Virus record (IMG/VR): IMGVR_UViG_3300025120_000370
Coordinates: 1-28,946 of that record
DNA: 28,946 nt
Direction: 5' to 3' (one strand)
DNA from: a virus
Shown here: positions 8,273 to 22,445 of the stretch, in pieces
How the letters are laid out: each line of letters begins with the position of its first letter
How positions within the stretch are numbered: the stretch's first letter is position 1
Translations under genes and position numbers: made by a program
The notes under the pieces: model-generated
What the model was told of the DNA's origin: nothing
Databases searched by the model: none
Seen by the model: the letters and a program-made list of their open reading frames with translations, nothing else

Positions 8273-11200
8273 ATGATTGATAAAACAGATCCAACTAATA
8301 GGGATACTGTACCTGCTATGCTTACTCCTGGAGAATTTGTATTAAACAAAGAAGCAACAGAAATGTATGGTCCTATAATACAACAAATGAATAACAATGG
8401 TTTACAACAGCGTTCCGCAGAAAACAAAGCTATGGAAGCTAACATGGGTGGTGGTGTTAAGTATTACAATGATGGTAGTGAAAAACCAGTAAGTTCTTAT
8501 AAGTTTGAACCAACCATGAAAAAGTTAGTTCAAGATTTAATGAAAGATTTTGGACTTACTAAACTTCAAGCTTCTGCTATGGCTGGTAATCTTGGTTGGG
8601 AATCTGATAACTTTAAGGGTATGCAAGAATACAATCCTATTGTTAAAGGAAGTAAAGGCGGTTATGGTTTTGCTCAATGGACAGGTCCAAGGAGAGAGAT
8701 GTTTGAAGAGTGGTCAAAATCTAATAACTTAGACCCTTCATCTTATGATGCTAATTATGGATTTTTAAAATTTGAGTTATCAAATTCAAATGATGAAATA
8801 GGAAACATGGGTGTAAATACTATAGATCAATTAAAAAAATCTAACGATTTAAACGAAGCAACATCAATAGTTATGAACACTTATTTAAAACCTAAAATAC
8901 CCCACGAAGATAAACGTCAAAGTCGTAGTCAATCTGTTTTTGATTTATTTAAATCTGACAATAACAATGAAGTTGTTACATCTGTTCGGCCCCAAACAAG
9001 ACCTGAATCAATTCCAAAAGAATCACAACCTGTTGTTATGGAACAACCACCAGCTGCACTACCTAATCCTACAGGATACGGTGGTTATACACCTCAACAA
9101 TTCCTTGACGAAGCTGGAAGAATAAATACAACAACCACAGTTCCTAGTATGGAACAAGCTCCACCAATGATGCAAGAATTCATAGCCCCTCTTCCCAATG
9201 CTGGCGCTGACGCTAGTTTTGGCAGTGCTTTTAAAGAAGCTCGTGGTCGAATGGGTGCAGGTCAAGTCTTTGACTATGGAGGAAAACAATACACAACAAA
9301 TTTTGCAGAGGAAGAAGATATGATGACTGCTAATATGGGAGGCAAGGCTTGTTCTTGCGGCAAAAAGAAAGTGTGTGATTGTGGTTTAAGTATGACATAT
9401 GCTAACATGGGTGGTGATATTCCAGCGCAGTATTTAAATATTGGGGATTTTGTAAGAAATCTTATAAGTCCTTTTTATCAAAAAGAAGATAAGAAATATT
9501 TAGGATATGGAACAGAAGCATACCCTTATGATACAGTAGCTACTTATCCATCATTCACTGCTCCAGGAGATCAAGGAATGGACATGGGATCTATGACTCA
9601 ATCTAATAATAATACAGTTCCAAATTACACACCAGTTCCTTCAAGTTTTAATTCATTACAAAACAGAGCAGAGGGTTTACAAAATAATAATAATGTTCCA
9701 GAATTACAAAATTATACAATGCCTACGGGGATACCCCCTGCATTATTACCAAAGGTTAATTCAGATCAATCAATACTAGATGGATCTTCTGACAGTGTAA
9801 AGGATGCACAAAGGATGATGATGTTAAACAATCCTATGCCTAACATTTTACCTGTACCTGATGGTAATCCAACCTCACTTGCTCCACCTTCTGTAGATTT
9901 TCTACCTATGAAAGAATCTTTTAAAGGTGTCAGTATTCCAAGGAGTGAACAGGACGCTGAAAGAATGATGGGTATTAACAACCCAATGTCTGTACCACAA
10001 AGTGTACAAGATTCTCAAAGAATGATTGACATTAATGCTGACAATGGATTTATCCCCAAGCCTAATATAGACGTTCCAGTAGAACAGGTTTCCACAGAAG
10101 CTGAAGCTGCAGCTGAAAGAATTAGTGAAGAGATAAGTGATTTAAGGTTAAGGATGTCAGTTATGCCTTCAGGTTCTGAAATGAGAGCTATACTTCAAAC
10201 TCAAGTAGATCAAAAGTTAGGTCAAATAGCGTCTATGGGTCAAGATTTAAATTCAACTACACTACCTGTACCTAAACAAACAGGTGTTAACACTGGATTA
10301 ATTAACGCTAAAACAGAATTAGAGGCAGCTAATTTAAATTTACAAAAAGCTAAAACTCCTGAGGATATTCAAATAGCCGCTAATGAAATTGCTGCTGCAG
10401 AACTTAAAGTAGAAAACAATGCAACGATTCCTGAAATACAAACAAGTATGATAACTAAAGCAAACACAGAATCTTTGCAATCTAGACGGAATTTACTTTC
10501 TTCTATTGACAATCAAATTAATAACTCAAATAACCCTAGGGTTATTGCAGCCCTTAATGAAAAAAGGAAAGTAATTCAAGCAGACATTAAAGATCTTGAT
10601 ACTGATTTAATGTTAGAAGAGGGTGGTGTAAATGTTCTTGGAGAAAGGGGAAGAAGATCTCCGTACTTACAGTATGGTGATATAGTTCAATCTAGAATTG
10701 ATGCTCTTGAAAAATCTACAGAACCTGAAGGATCTCCTTCTAATAATACTAACAACACTACTAACAACACTACTACTGCACAAACAGATAGTGAGTCTAT
10801 AGAAAGTCTTGGTAATCAAATAGCTAAAGAAACCAAGAATGCACCTCAAGTTACAGAAGCCAAGGGTCTATTGTCCTCTGTGTTTGGAGATCTCTTTGAT
10901 AGTAAAGAACTTATGAGGGCTGCTATTATGTATCTTGGTGGTCGTGCTACAGGTATGTCTGGTAATCAAGCTCTTGCATTTGCAGGTAAAACCTACTTAT
11001 CTAGGGAAGAAGCAAATGATACAGCTATGAAAAAGCATATTAATAAACTTATTACAGATGGTGACTATACAACTGCATCTATTAAATTGTATAAAGAAAC
11101 AGGAGACATAGATGTATTGCAACTTAAAGGTGCTACTTATGTAGATCTTGGAGAAACTAAAACTTACTATCCTATTAGTGGTAAGATGAAAGGTGTTGCT

Positions 11201-11980
11201 GTTCAAGCTAGAAAAGTTAAAGGCAGTGATGGCAGTATAAAATGGCAAGGTCAAAATGGTCAATTCTTATCTTTAAATAAATATCATACTGATATAAATA
11301 GATCTAAGTCGAGACCAAGATCAGCTATTAATGCAGAAGTAGATCAAGTACAAAAACTGTTTATTAGTCTTAGAGATGATTATGGAACAGTTAAAACAGC
11401 ACAAGGTGGTGAATCTGCTGTTTATAGAACTAGATTAAATCCAAGACTTGTTGGTGAAAAAACTGTTGACTGGGCTATGTCAAATAACATTCCACCTTAT
11501 GCTGTTGGTGAAGTTTTAGAAGGTGCTTACAAGAGAGCTTTAGCTGATGCAGCAAGAGAAAACAAACCTTTAATAGCTGAATCTATTGATGGCTATCTTC
11601 ATAGTCAATGGATACAAATGTCTGCTGGTGATGTCACAGACTTTATGACAGGCGATGAAAAGAATCCTAAACCTATTGAAACTACTGCAGTCAATGAATG
11701 GGTTGGTGGTATAAAATCAAAAGTATCGGCCGTTAATCCAAAAGAATTTGAAGGTATGAATGATATAGTATTTTCTACTTTCTTAAGAGAGTCTAAATTA
11801 ACTGACAGCTATCACAATACTGAAGCTAATGGTGGTATTTCTTTAAAAGACAGACAGAGATATATTAGGAGGGCTAATGCACAAACCCCACCTATTAGTG
11901 GTTATATGTTATATATGCAAGAGAATGTTGCAAAAGAATATCGTCTGTTGCTTGACAAAAGAAATCAGGTAATGAGTTAA
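8273..11980 (+). CDS. Large ejection protein with N-terminal tail-lysozyme domain and Cys cluster
   Basis: A 1235-aa protein with an AGGAG ribosome site. Residues 13-27 contain VPAMLTPGEFVLNKEA, a motif frequent in phage structural proteins. Residues about 78-226 form a phage tail-lysozyme-type domain: ASAMAGNLGWESDNF with probable catalytic Glu110, and GGYGFAQWTGPRR (129-141). It would cut peptidoglycan during DNA entry, as the transglycosylase domain of T7 gp16 does. Residues 360-371 are CSCGKKKVCDCG, a probable metal-binding CxC-x5-CxC cluster flanked by NMGG motifs at 354 and 378. Residues about 620-860 are helical and Asn/Gln-rich, and from about 865 a globular region (LLSSVFGDLFDSKELMRAA) leads to the C-terminus, for which I see no function. 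It is part of the ejection block. Confidence 0.75.
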   Translation: MIDKTDPTNRDTVPAMLTPGEFVLNKEATEMYGPIIQQMNNNGLQQRSAENKAMEANMGGGVKYYNDGSEKPVSSYKFEPTMKKLVQDLMKDFGLTKLQASAMAGNLGWESDNFKGMQEYNPIVKGSKGGYGFAQWTGPRREMFEEWSKSNNLDPSSYDANYGFLKFELSNSNDEIGNMGVNTIDQLKKSNDLNEATSIVMNTYLKPKIPHEDKRQSRSQSVFDLFKSDNNNEVVTSVRPQTRPESIPKESQPVVMEQPPAALPNPTGYGGYTPQQFLDEAGRINTTTTVPSMEQAPPMMQEFIAPLPNAGADASFGSAFKEARGRMGAGQVFDYGGKQYTTNFAEEEDMMTANMGGKACSCGKKKVCDCGLSMTYANMGGDIPAQYLNIGDFVRNLISPFYQKEDKKYLGYGTEAYPYDTVATYPSFTAPGDQGMDMGSMTQSNNNTVPNYTPVPSSFNSLQNRAEGLQNNNNVPELQNYTMPTGIPPALLPKVNSDQSILDGSSDSVKDAQRMMMLNNPMPNILPVPDGNPTSLAPPSVDFLPMKESFKGVSIPRSEQDAERMMGINNPMSVPQSVQDSQRMIDINADNGFIPKPNIDVPVEQVSTEAEAAAERISEEISDLRLRMSVMPSGSEMRAILQTQVDQKLGQIASMGQDLNSTTLPVPKQTGVNTGLINAKTELEAANLNLQKAKTPEDIQIAANEIAAAELKVENNATIPEIQTSMITKANTESLQSRRNLLSSIDNQINNSNNPRVIAALNEKRKVIQADIKDLDTDLMLEEGGVNVLGERGRRSPYLQYGDIVQSRIDALEKSTEPEGSPSNNTNNTTNNTTTAQTDSESIESLGNQIAKETKNAPQVTEAKGLLSSVFGDLFDSKELMRAAIMYLGGRATGMSGNQALAFAGKTYLSREEANDTAMKKHINKLITDGDYTTASIKLYKETGDIDVLQLKGATYVDLGETKTYYPISGKMKGVAVQARKVKGSDGSIKWQGQNGQFLSLNKYHTDINRSKSRPRSAINAEVDQVQKLFISLRDDYGTVKTAQGGESAVYRTRLNPRLVGEKTVDWAMSNNIPPYAVGEVLEGAYKRALADAARENKPLIAESIDGYLHSQWIQMSAGDVTDFMTGDEKNPKPIETTAVNEWVGGIKSKVSAVNPKEFEGMNDIVFSTFLRESKLTDSYHNTEANGGISLKDRQRYIRRANAQTPPISGYMLYMQENVAKEYRLLLDKRNQVMS

Positions 11981-11997
11981 ATTAAAAGGAGATTAGT

Positions 11998-14900
11998 ATG
12001 GGACTATTGGACGAAGCTGTTGAGTACAGCCCTAAGAATTTAGGATCATCAGATAATTTCTTTATTGATGCAGATACAATATCAAATGCAGATGGGTCTG
12101 AAAGATATAGACTTGCTGGTTTTGATGCTGCAGAAGTTGAGAAAATAATTGATGGTGAGTTCAAACAAGGAACTGCTGGTGGTGCAAGATCTACTGACAT
12201 AGTTTCAAATCTTGCTAACAAGGAGGGGTTTACTAATATAAAACCTCTCCTTAATCCTGACGGAACTTTTAAGGAAGATGTTTATGGTCGTAAGTTAGTA
12301 GACCTTACAAACGAAAAGGGTGAAAGTTTTAATCAATCTCTTTTAAACTCTGGTGCATTTGACCCTAATGCATATAGCAGTTCTGATTCAATAGGTCTTG
12401 CAAGAATTTATCAAGCTCAAAAAGATGAACGTTTAGAATCAGGTGGGTCTTTAAATGCATTTGATAATGCAGCGTTTGATATTGAGTCTGCTGAAAGATC
12501 TGAAGGTGCAAAAGCATTAGGCTTTAAGAAAACATTAGAAACAGAAAAAGAACGAGCTCAATACATAGATTACTTTGAATCTAAAGGTATGTCTCGTGAA
12601 GAAGCTACTTACGAAATGGATAAGTACTTTAACTATGGTGTTGAACGAAGACGCAGTGATGTTGATATAAATTTTAATTCATTAAACCCATTTACTGATT
12701 CTTGGGAACAGGGGTGGACTAGTGTAGGTGAAGCTGCCTATGGTGTCGCTGAAATGTTTGGTGCTAAAACAGGCAATGAAGGCTTAGAAAATTGGGGTCA
12801 AGAAGGCATAGAAAAACAACGAAGTAAGCTTTCAAACTATGGGAATATAATTAATAGCTATAAAGATATTAACAGTGTAGGTTCGGCTTTTGAATACTTA
12901 GGAAGCACTATGGCTATGTCACTACCTTACATGGCAGCTACAGCTGCTGCTACTGTAGCAGCCCCTGCAACATATGGAGCATCTTTTTCTGTACCAGTTG
13001 CTATTTTTACAGGTATGACTTGGAATGAAATGGAAGGGGATAATGATAGTAAGTCAGCATCTTTAGCTATTGGCGCTGGTGTTGCAATGACTGTCTTAGA
13101 TCGAATAGGTATAAAAGGTTTAGGTGGTTTTGCTGCAAAAAATCCAGCTAAAACATTACAAGAAGCAGCTAATAAATATGCTAAAGAAAGAGCCATAAGT
13201 CAAGCAGAAGCTGGAGTAGTTGTAAAGCAAGCAACAGATAGAGTAATCGCAGAATTTGCAGAAAAAGTTGAGAGTTTAGCTAAAGAGCAATTAGCAGGTA
13301 AAGCTACTGCTAAACGTATTGCACAACGAATTGGTACTGGTTCTGTAGCAGAAGGACTTACTGAGGTAGGTCAAGAAACTGTAGGGTACTTAGCAGCTGT
13401 TCAAGGTTCAGATAAAATATTTGATTATCAAGAATTCCAAGAACGACTAGCTAATGCTGCTGTTGCAGGTAGTGCATTAGGTGCTACTTTCTCTGTTCCA
13501 GGAACTGTTAAAGATCAATTAAGTTGGATGGATGCAGCTGCAAGGTTTGGGGAACCTGCTTCTCCATCTGAAATAGAAGAGTATGCTAGAATAGAAATTT
13601 TAAATAACAGAAATAAACCAGAGTATAAAGGTAAAGTTAGAACTGTAAGTCAAGTACTTTCAGATGTAGACTCTGAGATGAATGCAGATAGTGCATACAC
13701 TGCTTTAGCTGATCGTGCTACTATGCACAAAAATTCAAACAAAGAAAAAAGTTTTTTAGATAGAGCATCAACATCTGTTATGAATGTATCTAACTTGTGG
13801 CAAGCATCTGTTACTAATGCTATCCCAAAGTCAGTGTTAGATAAGTCTTCTTCAGCAAGAGCACTTGCATCAATACTAGGTGGAACACTTACACCTTTAC
13901 ATGGTGGCTCTGGGATGGAAGCTGCACAACATCATTTAGTTACTGCATATAAAAATCAAGTGTCAGATCCTAAAAGATTTTATAAAGAGTTTGGTTTAAA
14001 AAGTGTGTTCGGTGTGTTTAAATCTTCAGATAAAGCTAGGATTAGTGATGAGATTTATTCAGTTATTAGAGGTGGTAAAAAAGGTAGGTATCAAAAAGGT
14101 AAATTTATAGCAGACCCTGAAGGTAAAGCAAGAGAGTTTTTAACTAAGGGTGAATTTGATCCTAAGAAAGTACCAGTAGACTTACCAAATAGAGCACTTA
14201 TTGTTAACTTAGGAACTCAATTAAAAGAATTAAGTAAAGTAATGAGAGATGATCAAGTAGCAGCTGGAGCTAAAATGGGAGATCTTTCAAATTATTTAGG
14301 AAGATATAAAGCTTTAAATAAAACTGAGATATATAAAAATCAAGCAGAGTTTAAAAAATTATTAATGACTAAACTTGGTAAACAAAATATGTCTGCTGCT
14401 CAAGCTCAAAAAATTACAGATGAAATTATAGATAATCCATTAGTCAACGATCTTGGGGATGCTCTTGCCTCTAATGTAGGATCATTAAATCCGTCATCTC
14501 ATAAACAAAGAACAGTAAATCTTTCAGAGAACACTGATTTTGACAAGTTCTTTGAAAGAGATATATTCGCTAATGTGGCTACGGCTGCTAAAGCAGCTGC
14601 AAGATACTCTGTTCAAATGCAATACGTAGGTAAAGATGGGTCTAAGATTGCTCATTTGCTTAAGAAAATGGAGAAAGAAGGGGTATCAAAGGAAGAAGTT
14701 AACAGGGTAGCCTCAGATGTATCTGACATACTAGAAGCAATGTCTGGTAACTACAACAGACCTAAGACACAAGCAGGTAAAAAGTTAATGAGGTTCCAGA
14801 AAAACGTAATGTTCTGGATGACATTATCTGCACTGCCACTTGCTACATTTTCCTCATTACCAGAAATGGCTATGACTCAAAGTGCCTTAACTAACGATCA

Positions 14901-16059
14901 AATCTTTGGAAAGAATGGAAGTATAAAATCTTTTGCTTCAGAGTTTGCTGCTTCTTTTATTCCTCAATTTAAAAAAGTTGAAAACAATACAGACGAAGAG
15001 ATACTTAAAGTAGTGACAAGAAGTAAAGGTCAAGAGAAAATGTCTGAGGTTGGTATGTATCAATGGGAAGTTGGTGCTGCTACTACAACTGGTGTTAGTG
15101 AAATACATGATGGTCGTAGGAACACTATGGAATTATTCTTCAAGGCTATTGGTTTAACACAATGGACTGACTACACTCGTGCTATTCGTGCTGCTATGGC
15201 GTATGATTTTATAAAAATAAATTCTGAGATTGTTGCTATGAGAAACTTAGGTTTCACTAAAGCAACTAGGGAAGCACAAGAAGCTGAACAGAAACTTAGA
15301 AGTTTAGGTATACCTGTAGAACAATTTGCAGAGATGATGTATCAAGTAGATCTTTATGGTCCAGATGCATTAAACAATGACCCTAAGAAGATTCAACTGT
15401 GGGAAACTACAATGAAGGAAGCTACGTTTAATTTTATTAATCAAGCTATCCCACTTCCAGGAGCCGCTAACAGACCTTTAATCTATCAAGATCCTAGGTT
15501 TGCTTTGTTCACACAGTTCCAAGGTTTTATATCTACATTTACAGCCAATCAAATACCTAGGTTATGGAATGATTATATTAAACGTGGTACACCAACCATG
15601 AGGTACAATACGTTTGTACTTATGTCTACTATGATTGCTATGGGTTTCTTAACACAGGCAATGAAAGATGCTATTAAATTTGAAGATGATGATGACGAAG
15701 GTACATTAGGTAATCCATATCTAGATACACCAGAATATATTAGGCGTGGTGTTATGTCTTCAGGACTCTTAGGAACAAGCGAAAGAATTGTAGATTTATT
15801 TGCACCTATCTATGGACAAAGATCCAGTGGTATGGGAGATTGGATTTACAATCAAGCGGCTGGCGAAAGTCCAACACTAGGTTACGTTGGTAGGCTAGGC
15901 GATGCCGCATTGAATGTTGCTAAAGGTGACTTTGAGAAAGCAATATACCAAGGGTTAAAATCAGCCCCAGGAGTTGCACCATTTACAGATACAAACAAAA
16001 GCATAGCTAGTTTTGTAACTGGTGGTGGTTGGAACTACAAAGATAACGAGGAGAACTAG
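11998..16059 (+). CDS. Very large ejection protein with N-terminal SNase-like nuclease domain
   Basis: A 1353-aa protein with AAGGAG upstream. Residues about 20-125 match the staphylococcal nuclease fold: IDADT (23-27; Asp26 and Thr27 equal SNase Asp21/Thr22), YRLAGFDAAE (37-46; Arg38, Asp43, Glu46 equal Arg35, Asp40, Glu43) and DVYGRKL (94-100; Arg98 equals Arg87). Every residue known to be needed for SNase catalysis is therefore present. Further on there are hydrophobic, Ala-rich stretches around 300-335 and 355-380, near 938-955 (MFWMTLSALPLATFSSLPEM) and near 1205-1220 (FVLMSTMIAMGFLTQAM), compatible with membrane insertion. The C-terminal region (NPYLDTPEYIRRGVMSSG, then SERIVDLFAPIYGQRSSG) has the style of large phage internal proteins. 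It probably forms the inner-membrane conduit while carrying a nuclease. The nuclease target is unknown. Confidence 0.75.
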   Translation: MGLLDEAVEYSPKNLGSSDNFFIDADTISNADGSERYRLAGFDAAEVEKIIDGEFKQGTAGGARSTDIVSNLANKEGFTNIKPLLNPDGTFKEDVYGRKLVDLTNEKGESFNQSLLNSGAFDPNAYSSSDSIGLARIYQAQKDERLESGGSLNAFDNAAFDIESAERSEGAKALGFKKTLETEKERAQYIDYFESKGMSREEATYEMDKYFNYGVERRRSDVDINFNSLNPFTDSWEQGWTSVGEAAYGVAEMFGAKTGNEGLENWGQEGIEKQRSKLSNYGNIINSYKDINSVGSAFEYLGSTMAMSLPYMAATAAATVAAPATYGASFSVPVAIFTGMTWNEMEGDNDSKSASLAIGAGVAMTVLDRIGIKGLGGFAAKNPAKTLQEAANKYAKERAISQAEAGVVVKQATDRVIAEFAEKVESLAKEQLAGKATAKRIAQRIGTGSVAEGLTEVGQETVGYLAAVQGSDKIFDYQEFQERLANAAVAGSALGATFSVPGTVKDQLSWMDAAARFGEPASPSEIEEYARIEILNNRNKPEYKGKVRTVSQVLSDVDSEMNADSAYTALADRATMHKNSNKEKSFLDRASTSVMNVSNLWQASVTNAIPKSVLDKSSSARALASILGGTLTPLHGGSGMEAAQHHLVTAYKNQVSDPKRFYKEFGLKSVFGVFKSSDKARISDEIYSVIRGGKKGRYQKGKFIADPEGKAREFLTKGEFDPKKVPVDLPNRALIVNLGTQLKELSKVMRDDQVAAGAKMGDLSNYLGRYKALNKTEIYKNQAEFKKLLMTKLGKQNMSAAQAQKITDEIIDNPLVNDLGDALASNVGSLNPSSHKQRTVNLSENTDFDKFFERDIFANVATAAKAAARYSVQMQYVGKDGSKIAHLLKKMEKEGVSKEEVNRVASDVSDILEAMSGNYNRPKTQAGKKLMRFQKNVMFWMTLSALPLATFSSLPEMAMTQSALTNDQIFGKNGSIKSFASEFAASFIPQFKKVENNTDEEILKVVTRSKGQEKMSEVGMYQWEVGAATTTGVSEIHDGRRNTMELFFKAIGLTQWTDYTRAIRAAMAYDFIKINSEIVAMRNLGFTKATREAQEAEQKLRSLGIPVEQFAEMMYQVDLYGPDALNNDPKKIQLWETTMKEATFNFINQAIPLPGAANRPLIYQDPRFALFTQFQGFISTFTANQIPRLWNDYIKRGTPTMRYNTFVLMSTMIAMGFLTQAMKDAIKFEDDDDEGTLGNPYLDTPEYIRRGVMSSGLLGTSERIVDLFAPIYGQRSSGMGDWIYNQAAGESPTLGYVGRLGDAALNVAKGDFEKAIYQGLKSAPGVAPFTDTNKSIASFVTGGGWNYKDNEEN

Positions 16060-16061
16060 TA

Positions 16062-19000
16062 ATGGCACTAGAATATGCACGTAACTTATCAGCAGTTGAA
16101 AACAAAGACAATAAATTAGATGTAGGTCTTATAGAGACAGCTACTTCAGGTAAAGGGTTATTAGCAGAAGCTTCTGAAATAATTCCTGGAAGTGCTGCAA
16201 CTGTTGGAGGTCCACAACGTTCTTTTAAAACTATATCACAAGATCGTATTATAGAGATTCAAGATAAAGATCTTACAGATGAAGAGATAGAACAGAGGAA
16301 TCAAGAAGCTGGTAGAGTATCTAGTATACGTGAGGCACAAAGTGGTTTATCTCCAGATTTAAATTATGATTATCAAGAAAACATTACAAAGCCAAATTTT
16401 AAAAACTTAGATACCGATGGTGGTATACTTAGCAGAGCTACTCAATTTGCTAACGCTACGACTCAAGGAAACTTTGGATTAAATTTAGCCATTGATAATA
16501 ATCTTTCTGGTATAGCTCCAGAATCTAGAGCTTCTATTAAAAATTTTAAAGGTCCAGATTTAACTACAGGATTTCGTTCTGTTTTTGATGGACAAAAAGC
16601 TAATGTCCTTCAAGCAATAAGTGCTGCGGATGGTGTTGTAATGTCTGAAGGAACAGGGTCTGGTAAGATAAATATATCTGTTCCTAATCCTGTTTACTCA
16701 CAAGTTATGAGTGCTGCAACAGAACACGTTCTTATGAATTCTTTTGCTGGAACAAATGCTGAAGTTGATCCTTATAAAGAGTTTATAGAATCAAAAAAAA
16801 GTTTACTTCCTACTAATAAAAAAGCACAATCTATGCAACTAAAAGAAGTAAGCGATGAAACTAATAATGCACAACTAGGTCAACTTATTCATTTAACTTA
16901 TTTAAGACTGTTGAGAGATAGACTTTTAAATGAAAATGGAGATAGGATACGTAGTGATCCTAAATATCAACAGCTTAGTTTGGATTCCCCTAACCCACTT
17001 ACACTTGAAGAATCTGAAGTTTTAGGTAAAGCAGCTAAAGAAATTTGGACAGATAATAATAGAGATCTTGTTGATAAAATAAAAGTAAAAACAGGTGTTG
17101 GTCCAAAGACACAAAATAAATATATATTAACTCCTAGGGGTGAGAATGTATTATCTCAAGGGCAAAAAGCACGTTCTTTATTGTTCCCCTCTACAATAGT
17201 TAAACCATTAAGATCTCCCAATGGTTTTTCTAATACTGATATGGGTAAGAATAAACTTAAAAAAATTCAAGGTAAATCTATTGGACAAAGAGCAGGAAGT
17301 GAAATAGATCAAGCAATAGAAAACTTAGAGAGTGTAGGTAGCAGGGTTAATAGTCGTAGGGCTAAAATAGCTTTGAGTACTTTGCTTCCTATATTAGCTT
17401 CTAATGTAGACTCTCCTCGTAGTTGGGTAGATGAGATGTATAATATTGGTAATCAAAAACTAGATATGTTTAACGCTTCTAAAAAATTAGAAGAAATAAA
17501 AATGGCTAGTGGTGAGATTGATACCCTACCATTAGATAAACGCTATAAACCTTTAGAAGAACTTGAAGGATTAAGAAATAAATTAGCTCAAGAACTTAGA
17601 GCTTTAGCTGAAGTCCGTGAAGGAGTTTTCTATTCAACTTATGCTATTCAAGGGTTTCAAGGACGATTAACTCCTCAACAAACATATGTTAACTCTACTA
17701 CATCAAAGCTTGTTAGGTTTGTAACTAGCGCAGTGTTACCTGCATTTGTAAAGCGTGGTAACAGGCAAGATTTAAACTTACGTCAGATGTATGCTAAAGC
17801 ATTATTAACAAACACAGAAGGTAAAAACATTGGTGATCCATTATTACCCGATGCAAGAGAATCTCTTCTTACAAAAGATACAGGTACTTTGTACAGTAGG
17901 GGTAAACGTTTAAGGCAAGCTTTAGAAATGACAGATGCTGAGTATGAAACAATTTCTCAAGCTATGGTAGATAAGATACCTATAAACTCTTCTAATTTTC
18001 CTAAGTTTGGAGGGTTAAATTTAGATCCAGTTGCTGATGAAGATTTAATATCTATTATAAATAAACAGGGGGAAGATGGTGCAGCATTTATAGACGCATC
18101 AATAGACTTTGCAAATTATATAGATCATTTTAACAGTGACACCACTAAACCATTTGAGTCTTACCTTAATGCGTACATGGATGGTAAAACTAATGGACCT
18201 GCAACTCAAGGTATGCAAATGGGAGATGAAAGAGTAGCGTATAAAACAGGAGTTTTAAGGAAGTCAGAAAACAAAACCCAATTACTAGATAATGGGGATC
18301 TTAGAAATGAACTTATGGATCATGCTAAAAGAAATATTTTACAAAATCCATTTACAATATCTGAAGACAATCCTGAATGGCTCAATGCTATTGAAACTGT
18401 AGCCTCTGAACTTTACAATGATAAAGATTTAGCTAAAATAGTTATAATGACTTACGGGTATGGTAAAGAACTTGGTGGTAGTTTTGCTGCTACTTTTAGA
18501 GAGTTAGTTGAATTAAAAAGAGCAACTGCTGAAAGAGAATCAAAAGAATTTCGTGGAGAATCTTCTGATGAGTTTACATTATTAAGGGCTATTAGAGTTC
18601 TTGATGCTAATGATATGAAACAATCTCTAACACTAATGAGGAAAAAATATGAAGAATCTTTAGAGGATTTAATGTCAGAATTAGGTATAGAAAGTAGGTC
18701 ATTAATGAGGGCTGTGGCTGGAGCGACAGCTGTTATGGATGTTTCTTTTCAATTTGAACTTCCAAATGGCATGACATCTTTTATAGGTAAGTCAGTGTCT
18801 GATGGTTATGATAACAAGTATCAGTACTCTATACAACGTGGTCAACAATATGATCTTGGGCTTGAAGAAAAACTTCAAAAAGCTATAGAAAATAATAATC
18901 AATCACAGATAGATGATTATCAACGTAGGATAGCTAATGAAAAGAATAGAGTTCTTGGAAAAAGAGATACTACTATGGTTTATGCGTGGAAAAATAGAGA

Positions 19001-19838
19001 AACTGGTTCAGCTTTTAGAGATCGTGATGGTCAATTAATCCCAGGAGATTGGGCTTACGGAGGAGCACCTGTTGTTCCTATACAAGCTGTGGATGCTGCT
19101 ACTGTTACAAAAAGTGTTACTGGAAAATCTTGGCAATCTTTAATGAAAGCATCTCAAGGATACCCTTTCATACATACAATCTATGATGCATTTAAAGTGG
19201 ATGCTAACGGATATGATGTTGTTCTCAGAGAAGTTAATACTAACTGGATGAAGATTAATAATGATTGGAATTATTTAGAAGAAGCTTTAAAATCTTTAGA
19301 GAAATCTGAAGCTGAGTTTAAAGAGATGACCAAAGACATGAAAGATTCTGATGTTCTTAGCCCAAGTCAAAGTGCTTATATGAATTGGATGTTAACTTTA
19401 CAAGATCCTGTAGCTAATGATGAAGCTAATCTGTCAGATGAAGAAATAAAAGCATTGGAAAAATTAAGTAAAGATGAAGATCCAGAAAAAGTTCTTTCTA
19501 ATTTTAGAAATCGAATGATTAAATTTAATCCTAGTTTAAAATCAGACAGTGCAACTAAGTCTTATCCAATAATAGATATTGAAAAAACTTTAATTGAACG
19601 TATGCGTAGAGTTGGTTATGATGTTTTTAATCCACCAAGTCAACCTACTTTTAGACAATTAAAAGAATTTAAATCAATAGTTCAAACTAATTCGGCTATT
19701 AAAGAAAGACTTAAAAGAGCAATATATAAAACTAATAAGAAGAAAAGTGAATTGAATAAGTTAATGCGACAAGAATCAGAACTTATGTATACTGATCCTC
19801 AAGGATATACTTACCCTCTTCAATACTACACACACTAA
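16062..19838 (+). CDS. Putative virion-packaged single-subunit RNA polymerase (ejected)
   Basis: A 1258-aa protein, the last gene of the ejection block, two bases after its neighbour and with GAGGAG upstream. Residues about 510-1100 carry the motifs of T7-superfamily RNA polymerases. QGFQGRLTP (530-538) corresponds to T7 DWRGRVY. MDGKTNGPATQG (706-717) is motif A, with Asp707 equal to T7 Asp537. KIVIMTYGYGKE (792-803) is motif B, with Lys792, Thr797, Tyr800 and Gly801 equal to T7 Lys631, Thr636, Tyr639 and Gly640. ELPNGM lies near 900 (T7 TPDGF), and PIQAVDAATV (1006-1015) matches T7 NFVHSQDGSHL. IYDAFKVD (1040-1047) is motif C, with Asp1042 equal to Asp812. Known relatives packaged in virions are the N4 vRNAP and crAss-like polymerases, which are far larger. 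Gene position implies injection with the DNA. The first 500 residues are unrecognised and may hold virion-binding and promoter-reading parts. Confidence 0.8.
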   Translation: MALEYARNLSAVENKDNKLDVGLIETATSGKGLLAEASEIIPGSAATVGGPQRSFKTISQDRIIEIQDKDLTDEEIEQRNQEAGRVSSIREAQSGLSPDLNYDYQENITKPNFKNLDTDGGILSRATQFANATTQGNFGLNLAIDNNLSGIAPESRASIKNFKGPDLTTGFRSVFDGQKANVLQAISAADGVVMSEGTGSGKINISVPNPVYSQVMSAATEHVLMNSFAGTNAEVDPYKEFIESKKSLLPTNKKAQSMQLKEVSDETNNAQLGQLIHLTYLRLLRDRLLNENGDRIRSDPKYQQLSLDSPNPLTLEESEVLGKAAKEIWTDNNRDLVDKIKVKTGVGPKTQNKYILTPRGENVLSQGQKARSLLFPSTIVKPLRSPNGFSNTDMGKNKLKKIQGKSIGQRAGSEIDQAIENLESVGSRVNSRRAKIALSTLLPILASNVDSPRSWVDEMYNIGNQKLDMFNASKKLEEIKMASGEIDTLPLDKRYKPLEELEGLRNKLAQELRALAEVREGVFYSTYAIQGFQGRLTPQQTYVNSTTSKLVRFVTSAVLPAFVKRGNRQDLNLRQMYAKALLTNTEGKNIGDPLLPDARESLLTKDTGTLYSRGKRLRQALEMTDAEYETISQAMVDKIPINSSNFPKFGGLNLDPVADEDLISIINKQGEDGAAFIDASIDFANYIDHFNSDTTKPFESYLNAYMDGKTNGPATQGMQMGDERVAYKTGVLRKSENKTQLLDNGDLRNELMDHAKRNILQNPFTISEDNPEWLNAIETVASELYNDKDLAKIVIMTYGYGKELGGSFAATFRELVELKRATAERESKEFRGESSDEFTLLRAIRVLDANDMKQSLTLMRKKYEESLEDLMSELGIESRSLMRAVAGATAVMDVSFQFELPNGMTSFIGKSVSDGYDNKYQYSIQRGQQYDLGLEEKLQKAIENNNQSQIDDYQRRIANEKNRVLGKRDTTMVYAWKNRETGSAFRDRDGQLIPGDWAYGGAPVVPIQAVDAATVTKSVTGKSWQSLMKASQGYPFIHTIYDAFKVDANGYDVVLREVNTNWMKINNDWNYLEEALKSLEKSEAEFKEMTKDMKDSDVLSPSQSAYMNWMLTLQDPVANDEANLSDEEIKALEKLSKDEDPEKVLSNFRNRMIKFNPSLKSDSATKSYPIIDIEKTLIERMRRVGYDVFNPPSQPTFRQLKEFKSIVQTNSAIKERLKRAIYKTNKKKSELNKLMRQESELMYTDPQGYTYPLQYYTH

Positions 19839-19888: not shown

Positions 19889-20170
19889 TTATTTAAGCAT
19901 ACCTCTTTTAGCAAGAAGTGTTTTGTATTCTTTTATTTGATCTTGTTTACGTGCCTTAGCTTGTTTCTCATCTATTACATTATTAGCAAGATCTTCGGCA
20001 ATACCTATGTCTATTATCCTAGGCATAAGTTCTGGAGTATAAGCCAGACTTTCATCTAAGGTTGTGTTAGTTAATGAGTTAGTGTTCCAATCATTGATAA
20101 ACTCATCATCATCAACTTGCACACCTCTTAATGCTAAGTGGTTATACGATTTACGCGAAGAAGTAATCAC
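19889..20170 (-). CDS. Hypothetical protein at the end of the early arm
   Basis: A small charged, soluble protein of about 93 residues with no recognised family. It overlaps the 3' end of the RNA polymerase gene. The open frame reaches back to a TTG at 20179, but the ribosome site (AAAGGAG, complement of 20181-20187) ends only one base before that codon. The in-frame GTG at 20168-20170 is about ten bases from GGAG and is the better start, giving a 20-bp overlap with the polymerase gene. The C-terminal third is a Lys/Gln-rich helix (EKQAKARKQDQIKEYKTLL). No cysteines or membrane segments. As the last gene before the terminator it is co-transcribed with the polymerase. The function is unknown. 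Confidence 0.7.
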   Translation of the reverse strand: MITSSRKSYNHLALRGVQVDDDEFINDWNTNSLTNTTLDESLAYTPELMPRIIDIGIAEDLANNVIDEKQAKARKQDQIKEYKTLLAKRGMLK

Positions 20171-22445
20171 TGTTTTCAATCTCCTTTATATCTAAGTTGC
20201 CAAGTGTGGGTTGTTCCACATCATCTTCAGCATCTGTTATGAAGTTACGTATAACTTCAAAATAATTATCACAGTCATACATACGTATGAACACTTGTTT
20301 AGTTAAGCTTAGTAGTTTATCTACATCACTTGCATGGGTACTGAAGCTATCATGTACGGCTGCAAAGCAACCATCCCAACTAGACACTACGAGAGCCATA
20401 TGACTAGCATCCATAGAATGAATGTAGTTAGGTGACATTCCACACACAAACCCTCTACGATCAGGCATACGTGTAGGTACTAGGGCTACGTGGGTTACTT
20501 GACCTGTCTTATTACCATAGCCTTTGATACGTCCTCTAGCTTTCCTGTCTTGCATTATCCATTTCTCATAGACAACATTGAAACCTGAAGGAGTACCCCA
20601 TACTATTTTATCCACACCCTTACCATGTTTAAGGTTTGTTGTGAATTCTTTTAGTTTAATAACAGTATCATTGAGTTCTATAAGATCATCATCAGTCTTG
20701 AAGTTCTTCTTCATTAACTCATCACGTTTTTGTGACAACTCTCTGTACTCTCCATTAGCTTCGTAACCATCTAGGTCTACTTTAACATGGGTTCCTAGTT
20801 GGTACATAGCTAAGTCTTGCAAGTAACGCATAGTAGATAGGGGGCCAGGACATACCTTATCGATAGCTTTTATGAGAAGCTTTGATAGTTTAGTACAATC
20901 GTCCTGTGTTATCCCATACTCTGTGTGGTAGTCTTCAGACTTACAATCAAAGAACATATTCTCAGCGATCTTCTTAGAACCTGCTGAGTATGCCCTAGTC
21001 ATTGAGCCACGTTTAGATATGCCTTTGCGTATACTTTTCATAGGCATACTTGCTAAGATAGATTTTAATCTGTCATCTTTACAGATGTTAATCATCTCTT
21101 TAGCAGTTTGAACATAGAAATCTTTCTGTATTTCTCCAGGAATTAGACCTACTAGATCTCCTGTTTGTTCATCTTTTGAGATAGCACCTAAGTGTTGCCA
21201 TCCATTGTTACTACCATCAATAGGTATAGGCAGTGAAGTCATGTGTATCCTGTTGTCTTTGAATGCACAGTCAAACTCATACCATTCAACACAAGCAGCA
21301 AGGAAAGATACTTTCTTCTCTGCATCGTTAGAGAACTGTAAGTTCATACCTGCATCAACTATCTCTTCCATGTACTGATTAGTCCACTCAATGCGATCTT
21401 CTAGTGTCATTTTGTCAACAGATATATTATCTAATCCCTCACTTTCAAGGTGAGTTCTATAGTCTGCTGTACACCAATCAGGTATCTCATCAAGTCCATA
21501 AGACATATTAAATACGGATGCAGTGTGTATTGCTAACCACTGTAGTCCACCTTCAGTCATTGGCTTTGAATGATAAAACTTAAACAATCCCCTAGCTAGA
21601 TCAGACCCTTGGAAGTTCATAAAACTTTCACAGTAATACAATCTACTTCTGTAGTCTGCATCTATATACTGATAGAACTTCTCTAGCTCTGATAACTTAC
21701 GTGCTTTCTCTGATATAAAAGCCCACTCTACCATCTTACTTCTACGTTTAAGTTCTTTGGCATCGTTATCTAGTACAGGTTCTTGAGATACAAACAGATC
21801 TTTGTTAGCTACCATAGCCTCAAATACAGGAGTATTAATTTTCCATTCTGTTTGTTGCAATTTATTTATTGCTTGTACCCAAGGGGCATAGGGATCTAAG
21901 TAGTCTCCTTCTAAGCTACCTTTAATTACTGGTCTGTTTACACCATTAATATTTTGAAACATCTTATTGATATCTTTAGGTTTCTTTGTTGTAGTTGCAG
22001 CTAATGGAAAGCTATCTCCCCTATCTGGAATGACACCAAGTTCATACCAACGAGGAGAAGCTGACACAACATGACAACTGTTTCTTGTTTTAGCATACGA
22101 TAAGTCTATGAACTTTAAATTATATAAAGCTTCTATGAACAAATCACCTATAGATACCTGAGAGCCCCAAGGTAGGGGCTCCCTATCTAACTCTTTACCA
22201 ACACTTTGACCTATCTTGGTAGACGCATTGGTCAATGTTGTAGTCCCTGCTGGACTAGAACTAGTGTCTTTTGTAAATTGCATCTGTAGTATTGAGATGC
22301 TTTTAAGAACGTACTCTTCCATACGTTCACTATAGTTAACTGATAGCCTCAGTAAGAGCCCTGCAAGATGGGGTCTTCTACGTGCTGGACTAACAGCATC
22401 TACCCTAGTTACAAGGTAGTCAACTATCTCTTGGAGTGCTGACAT
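20151..22445 (-). CDS. T7-type single-subunit DNA-directed RNA polymerase
   Basis: Phage RNA polymerase expected to transcribe middle and late genes. Motifs visible in the 764 residues: IDADYRSRLY (261-270, the DxxGR motif with Ser267 in place of Gly), motif A IDGSNNGWQH (Asp410), motif B SKRGSMTRAYS (Lys478, Tyr486; Ser487 in place of the usual Gly), GTPSGF (617-622, the TPDGF equivalent), NYIHSMDASH (673-682), and motif C AAVHDSF (Asp699). The C-terminus ends DYFFA, the conserved foot of this family (T7 ends DFAFA). It is about 120 residues shorter than T7 RNA polymerase (883 aa), mainly in the N-terminal domain, so promoter recognition may differ. ATG start with AGGAG five bases upstream. 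It lies near the promoter-distal end of the early arm and starts eight bases after the helicase gene. Confidence 0.96.
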   Translation of the reverse strand: MSALQEIVDYLVTRVDAVSPARRRPHLAGLLLRLSVNYSERMEEYVLKSISILQMQFTKDTSSSPAGTTTLTNASTKIGQSVGKELDREPLPWGSQVSIGDLFIEALYNLKFIDLSYAKTRNSCHVVSASPRWYELGVIPDRGDSFPLAATTTKKPKDINKMFQNINGVNRPVIKGSLEGDYLDPYAPWVQAINKLQQTEWKINTPVFEAMVANKDLFVSQEPVLDNDAKELKRRSKMVEWAFISEKARKLSELEKFYQYIDADYRSRLYYCESFMNFQGSDLARGLFKFYHSKPMTEGGLQWLAIHTASVFNMSYGLDEIPDWCTADYRTHLESEGLDNISVDKMTLEDRIEWTNQYMEEIVDAGMNLQFSNDAEKKVSFLAACVEWYEFDCAFKDNRIHMTSLPIPIDGSNNGWQHLGAISKDEQTGDLVGLIPGEIQKDFYVQTAKEMINICKDDRLKSILASMPMKSIRKGISKRGSMTRAYSAGSKKIAENMFFDCKSEDYHTEYGITQDDCTKLSKLLIKAIDKVCPGPLSTMRYLQDLAMYQLGTHVKVDLDGYEANGEYRELSQKRDELMKKNFKTDDDLIELNDTVIKLKEFTTNLKHGKGVDKIVWGTPSGFNVVYEKWIMQDRKARGRIKGYGNKTGQVTHVALVPTRMPDRRGFVCGMSPNYIHSMDASHMALVVSSWDGCFAAVHDSFSTHASDVDKLLSLTKQVFIRMYDCDNYFEVIRNFITDAEDDVEQPTLGNLDIKEIENSDYFFA
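20181..20187 (-). promoter_or_regulatory. Ribosome binding site deciding the start of the last early gene
   Basis: AAAGGAG on the minus strand inside the 3' end of the RNA polymerase gene. It is too close to the TTG at 20177-20179 (one base) but about ten bases from the in-frame GTG at 20168-20170, which is therefore favoured. Confidence 0.6.

Follow-up and report, generated by a model that had tools for sequence, protein, structure and literature searches.

The DNA analysed here, hereafter called the window, is the whole of a 28,946-base virus record. It contains three consecutive giant genes, whose products are 1235, 1353 and 1258 aa long, together with ribonucleotide reductase and tail genes, and its opposite strand encodes a T7-like RNA polymerase, a primase/helicase, an exonuclease and a DNA polymerase (Table 1). 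The ribonucleotide reductase large-subunit gene (244-1995, +) lies before the tail genes, and its product, at 583 aa, is below the length of the family profile. The nearest isolate to the window is Roseobacter phage CRP-7, a podovirus, in which the gene order around the giant genes is identical and the hydrolase-bearing neighbour has the same place in the giant-gene block. The 1353-aa reading frame, and every residue that an earlier sequence-only reading of this DNA had cited in it, are present in the sequence.

Table 1. Features of the giant-gene locus, in coordinates of the window. SNase, staphylococcal nuclease.
Feature	Position	Strand	Basis or remark
AGGAGA ribosome-binding site	11987..11992	+	5 nt upstream of the ATG; read from sequence
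1353-aa giant virion/ejection-type protein with SNase-like domain	11998..16059	+	ORF, ATG start; phrog_6958; LUZ24/tf-type core
SNase-like domain, residues 17-122	12046..12363	+	AlphaFold, fold searches, PDB profile, PF00565, conservation
Metal-site residues D24 and D26 (SNase D19 and D21)	12067..12075	+	no variation among 16 non-identical proteins
R38, counterpart of catalytic R35	12109..12111	+	residue invariant, codons vary
D43, counterpart of metal ligand D40	12124..12126	+	Asp in the window; Asn/Glu in some relatives
E46, counterpart of general base E43	12133..12135	+	invariant
R98, counterpart of catalytic R87	12289..12291	+	invariant, given a one-residue insertion in some relatives
Linker, residues 123-228, fast-evolving	12364..12681	+	11-14% identity to the CRP-7 clade
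Core, residues 229-1326, common to LUZ24/tf-type virion proteins	12682..15975	+	hhalign 99.9, E=4e-36
Upstream giant protein, Phage_lysozyme2 at residues 81-226	8273..11980	+	Pfam E=3.5e-21
Downstream giant protein, candidate T7-type RNA polymerase motifs A, B and C	16062..19838	+	conserved motif columns; phrog_414

The sequence-only reading had placed an intact SNase-like domain at residues 20-125 of the 1353-aa protein. We confirmed that the domain at this N-terminus is a real observation; its place was given correctly, and residues 17-122 describe its bounds better. D26, T27, R38, D43, E46 and R98 align with SNase D21, T22, R35, D40, E43 and R87, as had been proposed, and the R-x4-D-x2-E spacing is exact. 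Relatives, numbered below with the prefix L, were gathered from viral contigs and complemented with CRP-7, giving a conservation set of 16 non-identical full-length proteins whose overall identity falls to about 20-21%. Within this set 12 of the 104 domain columns are invariant, and D24, D26, R38, E46 and R98 are among them, so that five of the six functional positions fall in invariant columns (hypergeometric P=5e-5, with columns treated as independent and relatedness ignored). The codons of R38 and R98 differ among the relatives (AGA/AGG/CGN) while Arg is unchanged, implying that it is the residue itself that is preserved. Arg38, Glu46 and Arg98, the residues on which the sequence-only reading had staked its claim, are thus kept in all relatives. 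The word "intact" was slightly too strong: although most catalytic counterparts are invariant, including D26 (D21) among the carboxylates that bind metal in SNase, D43 (D40), an Asp in the window, is replaced in three related lineages, by Asn in L007 and L015/L023 and by Glu in L008/L017. The T22 counterpart is Ser in one relative. In close pairs the head had a dN/dS of 0.03-0.30 and the core one of 0.06-0.22. All members have an acidic domain, with a pI of 4.4-5.1, unlike the S. aureus nuclease, which is a basic protein.

A profile built from 15 sequences matched thermonuclease chains of the PDB along the full length of the domain (E=0.0012 to 0.0099). The designed proteins 6tji and 5leb, which also appeared among the top-scoring chains, were discounted, being made of repeated units for which many weak repeats are summed. 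When PF00565 was searched in six frames of the window, its single match fell on the SNase-like domain (12268-12360, E=0.0046). The score was 12.2-12.3 bits, and 13.5 in the best relative, while the curated Pfam cut-off is 21 bits; therefore we call the domain SNase-like and do not file it as a PF00565 member. In L022 and L024 the match spans most of the model (E about 0.001-0.003), again below the curated cut-off, and the other 15 records searched gave no PF00565 match. Residues 34-123 of the window protein also matched phrog_452, an endonuclease family (E=0.0014), and a search of Pfam and NCBIfam with the full-length 1353-aa protein found no nuclease. Neither the N-terminus of the window protein nor the diverged N-terminus of L024 gave a tblastn match in the phage collection, a scan of the genome collection with the whole 1353-aa protein found no relative, and CRP-7 was recovered solely by a full-length query.

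The SNase-like fold that the sequence-only reading had expected of a structure prediction was found in AlphaFold models of two divergent members. The mean pLDDT was 66 for the window domain, with core blocks near 80, and 63 for the domain of L027, about 27% identical to that of the window, with core blocks of 76-87; overall confidence is moderate and lowest in the loop after E46. The order of elements in both models is that of SNase (beta strands-alpha-beta-beta-alpha). Foldseek against the PDB placed staphylococcal nuclease at the top for the window model (ranks 1-27) and for the L027 model (ranks 1-6). Because this nuclease has hundreds of PDB entries the length of such lists is inflated, and the weight of the fold argument is carried by rank, register and residues in these models. 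Alignment to SNase by VIA-align gave Z 6.7 for the window (89 residues, 3.9 A) and Z 7.9 for L027 (105 residues, 3.1 A), where a Z under 8 is by itself not decisive. The best match of a structure search in a viral library was a 1368-aa protein, the same length as CRP-7 gp34. Considering all these lines, we are nearly certain that the domain has an SNase-like fold homologous to SNase.

The rest of the 1353-aa protein is that of a virion protein. It matches phrog_6958, a family of virion structural proteins (E=2.6e-24; 9 of 13 members match), and hhalign aligned residues 229-1326 with the large virion protein of the Pseudomonas phages tf and JB8 and of a Vibrio phage (probability 99.9, E=4e-36). 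The N-terminal position of the nuclease-like domain on a giant virion protein thus stands, and the label "ejection protein" given by the sequence-only reading is supported by the gene neighbourhood and by this homology of the core, the latter being what suggests a place in the virion. In the tf, JB8 and Vibrio phage proteins the homologous part starts about 46 residues from the N-terminus, which leaves no room for an SNase head, and this makes the SNase-like head an add-on at the N-terminus, outside the core. It was retained in every relative whose N-terminus was available, and against the CRP-7 clade no other part of the protein is as well conserved: identity is 32-33% in the head, 20-22% in the core and 11-14% in the linker.

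The upstream giant protein carries a peptidoglycan hydrolase near its N-terminus, and this hydrolase belongs to four Pfam types among the relatives: Phage_lysozyme2 in the window, T4-type Phage_lysozyme in L012, L014 and L024, SLT in L017 and L021, and Pesticin-type in CRP-7 and L027 (the comparison of hydrolase heads took in L012, L014, L017, L021, L024, L027 and L002). It is striking that the upstream hydrolase heads are swapped among relatives while the SNase head is always kept. In the downstream 1258-aa protein the invariant columns QGFQGR, DGKT (D707), K792 with Y800-G801, and YD (D1042) would fit the motifs of T7-type RNA polymerases, and six of the nine members of its family matched phrog_414, an RNA polymerase family (best E=5.8e-6). 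Comparison of the 1258-aa protein by hhalign with the T7-like RNA polymerase encoded elsewhere by this phage gave no significant alignment (probability 0.1), and a PDB search with the profile of the 1258-aa protein brought up no polymerase. The case for a polymerase therefore depends on the motifs and phrog_414; possibly the protein is a virion-packaged polymerase in a non-N4 phage. The window has a second, ordinary T7-like RNA polymerase (20151-22445, -) besides the 1258-aa protein (16062-19838, +).

How might such a domain be used? We slightly favour a reading in which the N-terminal 120 residues would form an SNase-like, metal-dependent, sequence-nonspecific nuclease head, as predicted from its residues, on an LUZ24/tf-type ejection protein, latent in the capsid, ejected ahead of the DNA and cutting outside the DNA conduit. 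In the capsid the 1353-aa protein would be one of three giant ejection proteins, bearing a peptidoglycan hydrolase head, a nuclease head and an RNA polymerase, and the nuclease head would stay latent within the virion. The protein would leave before the DNA and reach the periplasm and inner membrane; there the head would fold and cut nucleic acid outside the conduit, namely DNA of the host or of competitors near the point of entry. As possible targets the sequence-only reading had named the host chromosome and rival DNA, or an action in the periplasm. The genome of the phage itself may be spared by passing inside the channel, by the head being unfolded or masked in the virion, by a metal or partner met only after ejection, or by several of these. 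The parts of this reading differ in strength. Delivery of the 1353-aa protein into the host is likely, as judged by analogy with T7, P22 and N4, whose internal proteins exit first and form a channel across the envelope (PMC8954989, PMC12633501). Catalytic competence of the head is probable, and that its target would be DNA other than the phage's own is a tentative suggestion, at best close to an even chance.

Several points speak against this reading: the PF00565 cut-off was missed, the D40 counterpart varies, pLDDT is moderate and the domain is acidic. The sparing of the phage's own genome is a further, real constraint. A marine virion is surrounded by about 10 mM Ca2+. When SNase was packaged in T4 heads, the packaged DNA was cut upon addition of Ca2+ (PMC3012670). 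Taken together, these two facts imply that the head must be inactive in the virion, masked or unfolded, or else need another ion or trigger, and they make the question of how the incoming genome is spared, which the sequence-only reading had raised, sharper than it was put there. Were the head active with Ca2+ inside the capsid, the genome of a virion in seawater should be cut by it, which counts against the explanation that we prefer. MAG_5040, a relative of SNase, is inhibited by Ca2+ and depends on Mg2+ (PMC3585158). As a speculation, such an inhibition would fit silence in seawater, although Mg2+ is plentiful there as well.

The simplest escape from self-damage would be that the domain is no longer catalytic and has a structural or DNA-contacting role in the ejection protein. 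Eukaryotic Tudor-SN proteins contain SNase-fold domains without activity, and both the variable D40 counterpart and the acidity of the domain would agree with such a loss. However, the counterparts of R35, E43, R87, D19 and D21 stay invariant down to about 20% overall identity, where only 12 of 104 columns do so, and an acidic surface speaks against plain DNA binding; we regard loss of catalysis as unlikely. It is far harder to maintain that the domain is not kin to SNase at all but a small beta-barrel of other origin in which R-x4-D-x2-E arose by chance. The Pfam cut-off was never passed and model confidence is moderate, but the models of two divergent members, the in-register profile matches and the invariant catalytic columns leave this reading, already disfavoured, with very little probability.

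If the nuclease is active, it may instead act on the phage's own entering DNA, for example by making a nick in its leading end or trimming it, which would let a co-ejected RNA polymerase load on a single-stranded template. The next gene encodes the giant protein with T7-type RNA polymerase motifs, the N4 virion RNA polymerase accepts denatured DNA as a template in vitro but not native DNA (PMC12633501), and universal retention of the SNase head against swapped hydrolases suits a core role in entry. Yet SNase enzymes are nonspecific, so tight control would be needed, and the polymerase assignment of the neighbour consists of motifs and a weak family match; we consider such processing rather improbable. 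A wider scheme, to which we give equally little credence, would be a three-enzyme ejection machine with hydrolase, SNase and single-subunit RNA polymerase on separate giant proteins, in which a fixed and essential nuclease head would act on the DNA of the phage as it enters, or on that of rivals, and would be activated after ejection by a change of metal or by refolding. An extracellular role, or one at adsorption, in which DNA or RNA around the receptor would be cleared away, has a point in its favour in the Ca2+ of seawater, which would switch on an SNase, and another in the SNase domain on the tail-hub protein of the Bacillus element BtI1 (PMC2147016). The core, however, is kin to LUZ24/tf-type podovirus virion proteins in internal-protein position and not to tail-surface proteins, and we hold this to be quite improbable.

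Compared with staphylococcal nuclease/thermonuclease (PF00565), the window domain has the same order of elements, the D19/D21/R35/E43/R87 positions and the R-x4-D-x2-E spacing; unlike it, the domain is fused to a giant virion protein, is acidic, varies at the D40 position and stays below the Pfam cut-off. The closest described counterpart is CRP-7 gp34 (MK613349, QBQ72827.1, annotated as hypothetical), about 22% identical overall to the window protein and sharing its architecture and residues, and CRP-7 was the only isolate found with the SNase-like domain; the main text of the CRP-7 paper (PMC6918029) contains no words beginning with "nuclease" and leaves a nuclease domain unmentioned. The LUZ24/tf-type large virion protein (tf_51; phrog_6958) is homologous to the core, its common part beginning near residue 229 of the window protein, and lacks the SNase-like head. 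T7 gp16 and other podovirus ejection proteins are likewise large internal proteins with an N-terminal enzyme head, although the head of T7 is a peptidoglycan hydrolase, which in the window sits on the neighbouring protein; the likeness to gp16 is one of architecture. The BtI1 tail-hub protein (PMC2147016) is a virion-type protein that likewise begins with an SNase domain, but it belongs to a contractile-tailed Bacillus phage-like element, where the SNase was read as occupying the place of the tail lysozyme, and is not a podovirus ejection protein. T4 heads with packaged SNase (PMC3012670) contain SNase and genome in one capsid, as is proposed for the window protein, but by engineering. Our literature search, in a library that covers a minority of subscription papers, brought up no account of an ejection or tape-measure protein bearing a nuclease apart from the BtI1 hub. 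SNase on a phage hub and the swapping of enzyme heads are thus already known, the latter as mosaic swapping of enzyme domains between ejection proteins (PMC8954989), and in the same library we found no paper describing a nuclease head on a podovirus ejection protein. In the usual picture, internal virion proteins build channels and have at most a wall-cutting or transcribing activity. If our preferred reading is true, a DNA-cutting enzyme would travel packed with and ahead of the genome, its head kept while the wall-cutting head swaps, and the conserved nuclease head raises a testable question, namely how the phage avoids cutting its own genome.

Among the relatives, L012 (6001-10011) and L011/L020 are about 95% identical in DNA from about residue 200 onward and strongly diverged upstream, and the junction marks a recombination boundary near the linker that follows the SNase-like head. 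We considered whether this pair reflects a shuffling of the domain like that of polymorphic toxins and rejected it, as a sliding comparison showed divergence through all the upstream genes covered. Since the diverged tract spans upstream genes, it represents ordinary mosaicism with a boundary near the linker and not an exchange of the domain only. In L018 (6001-6864) the homologous ORF ends after 287 aa while the match runs on to 10069, by a frameshift or a sequencing error in that contig.
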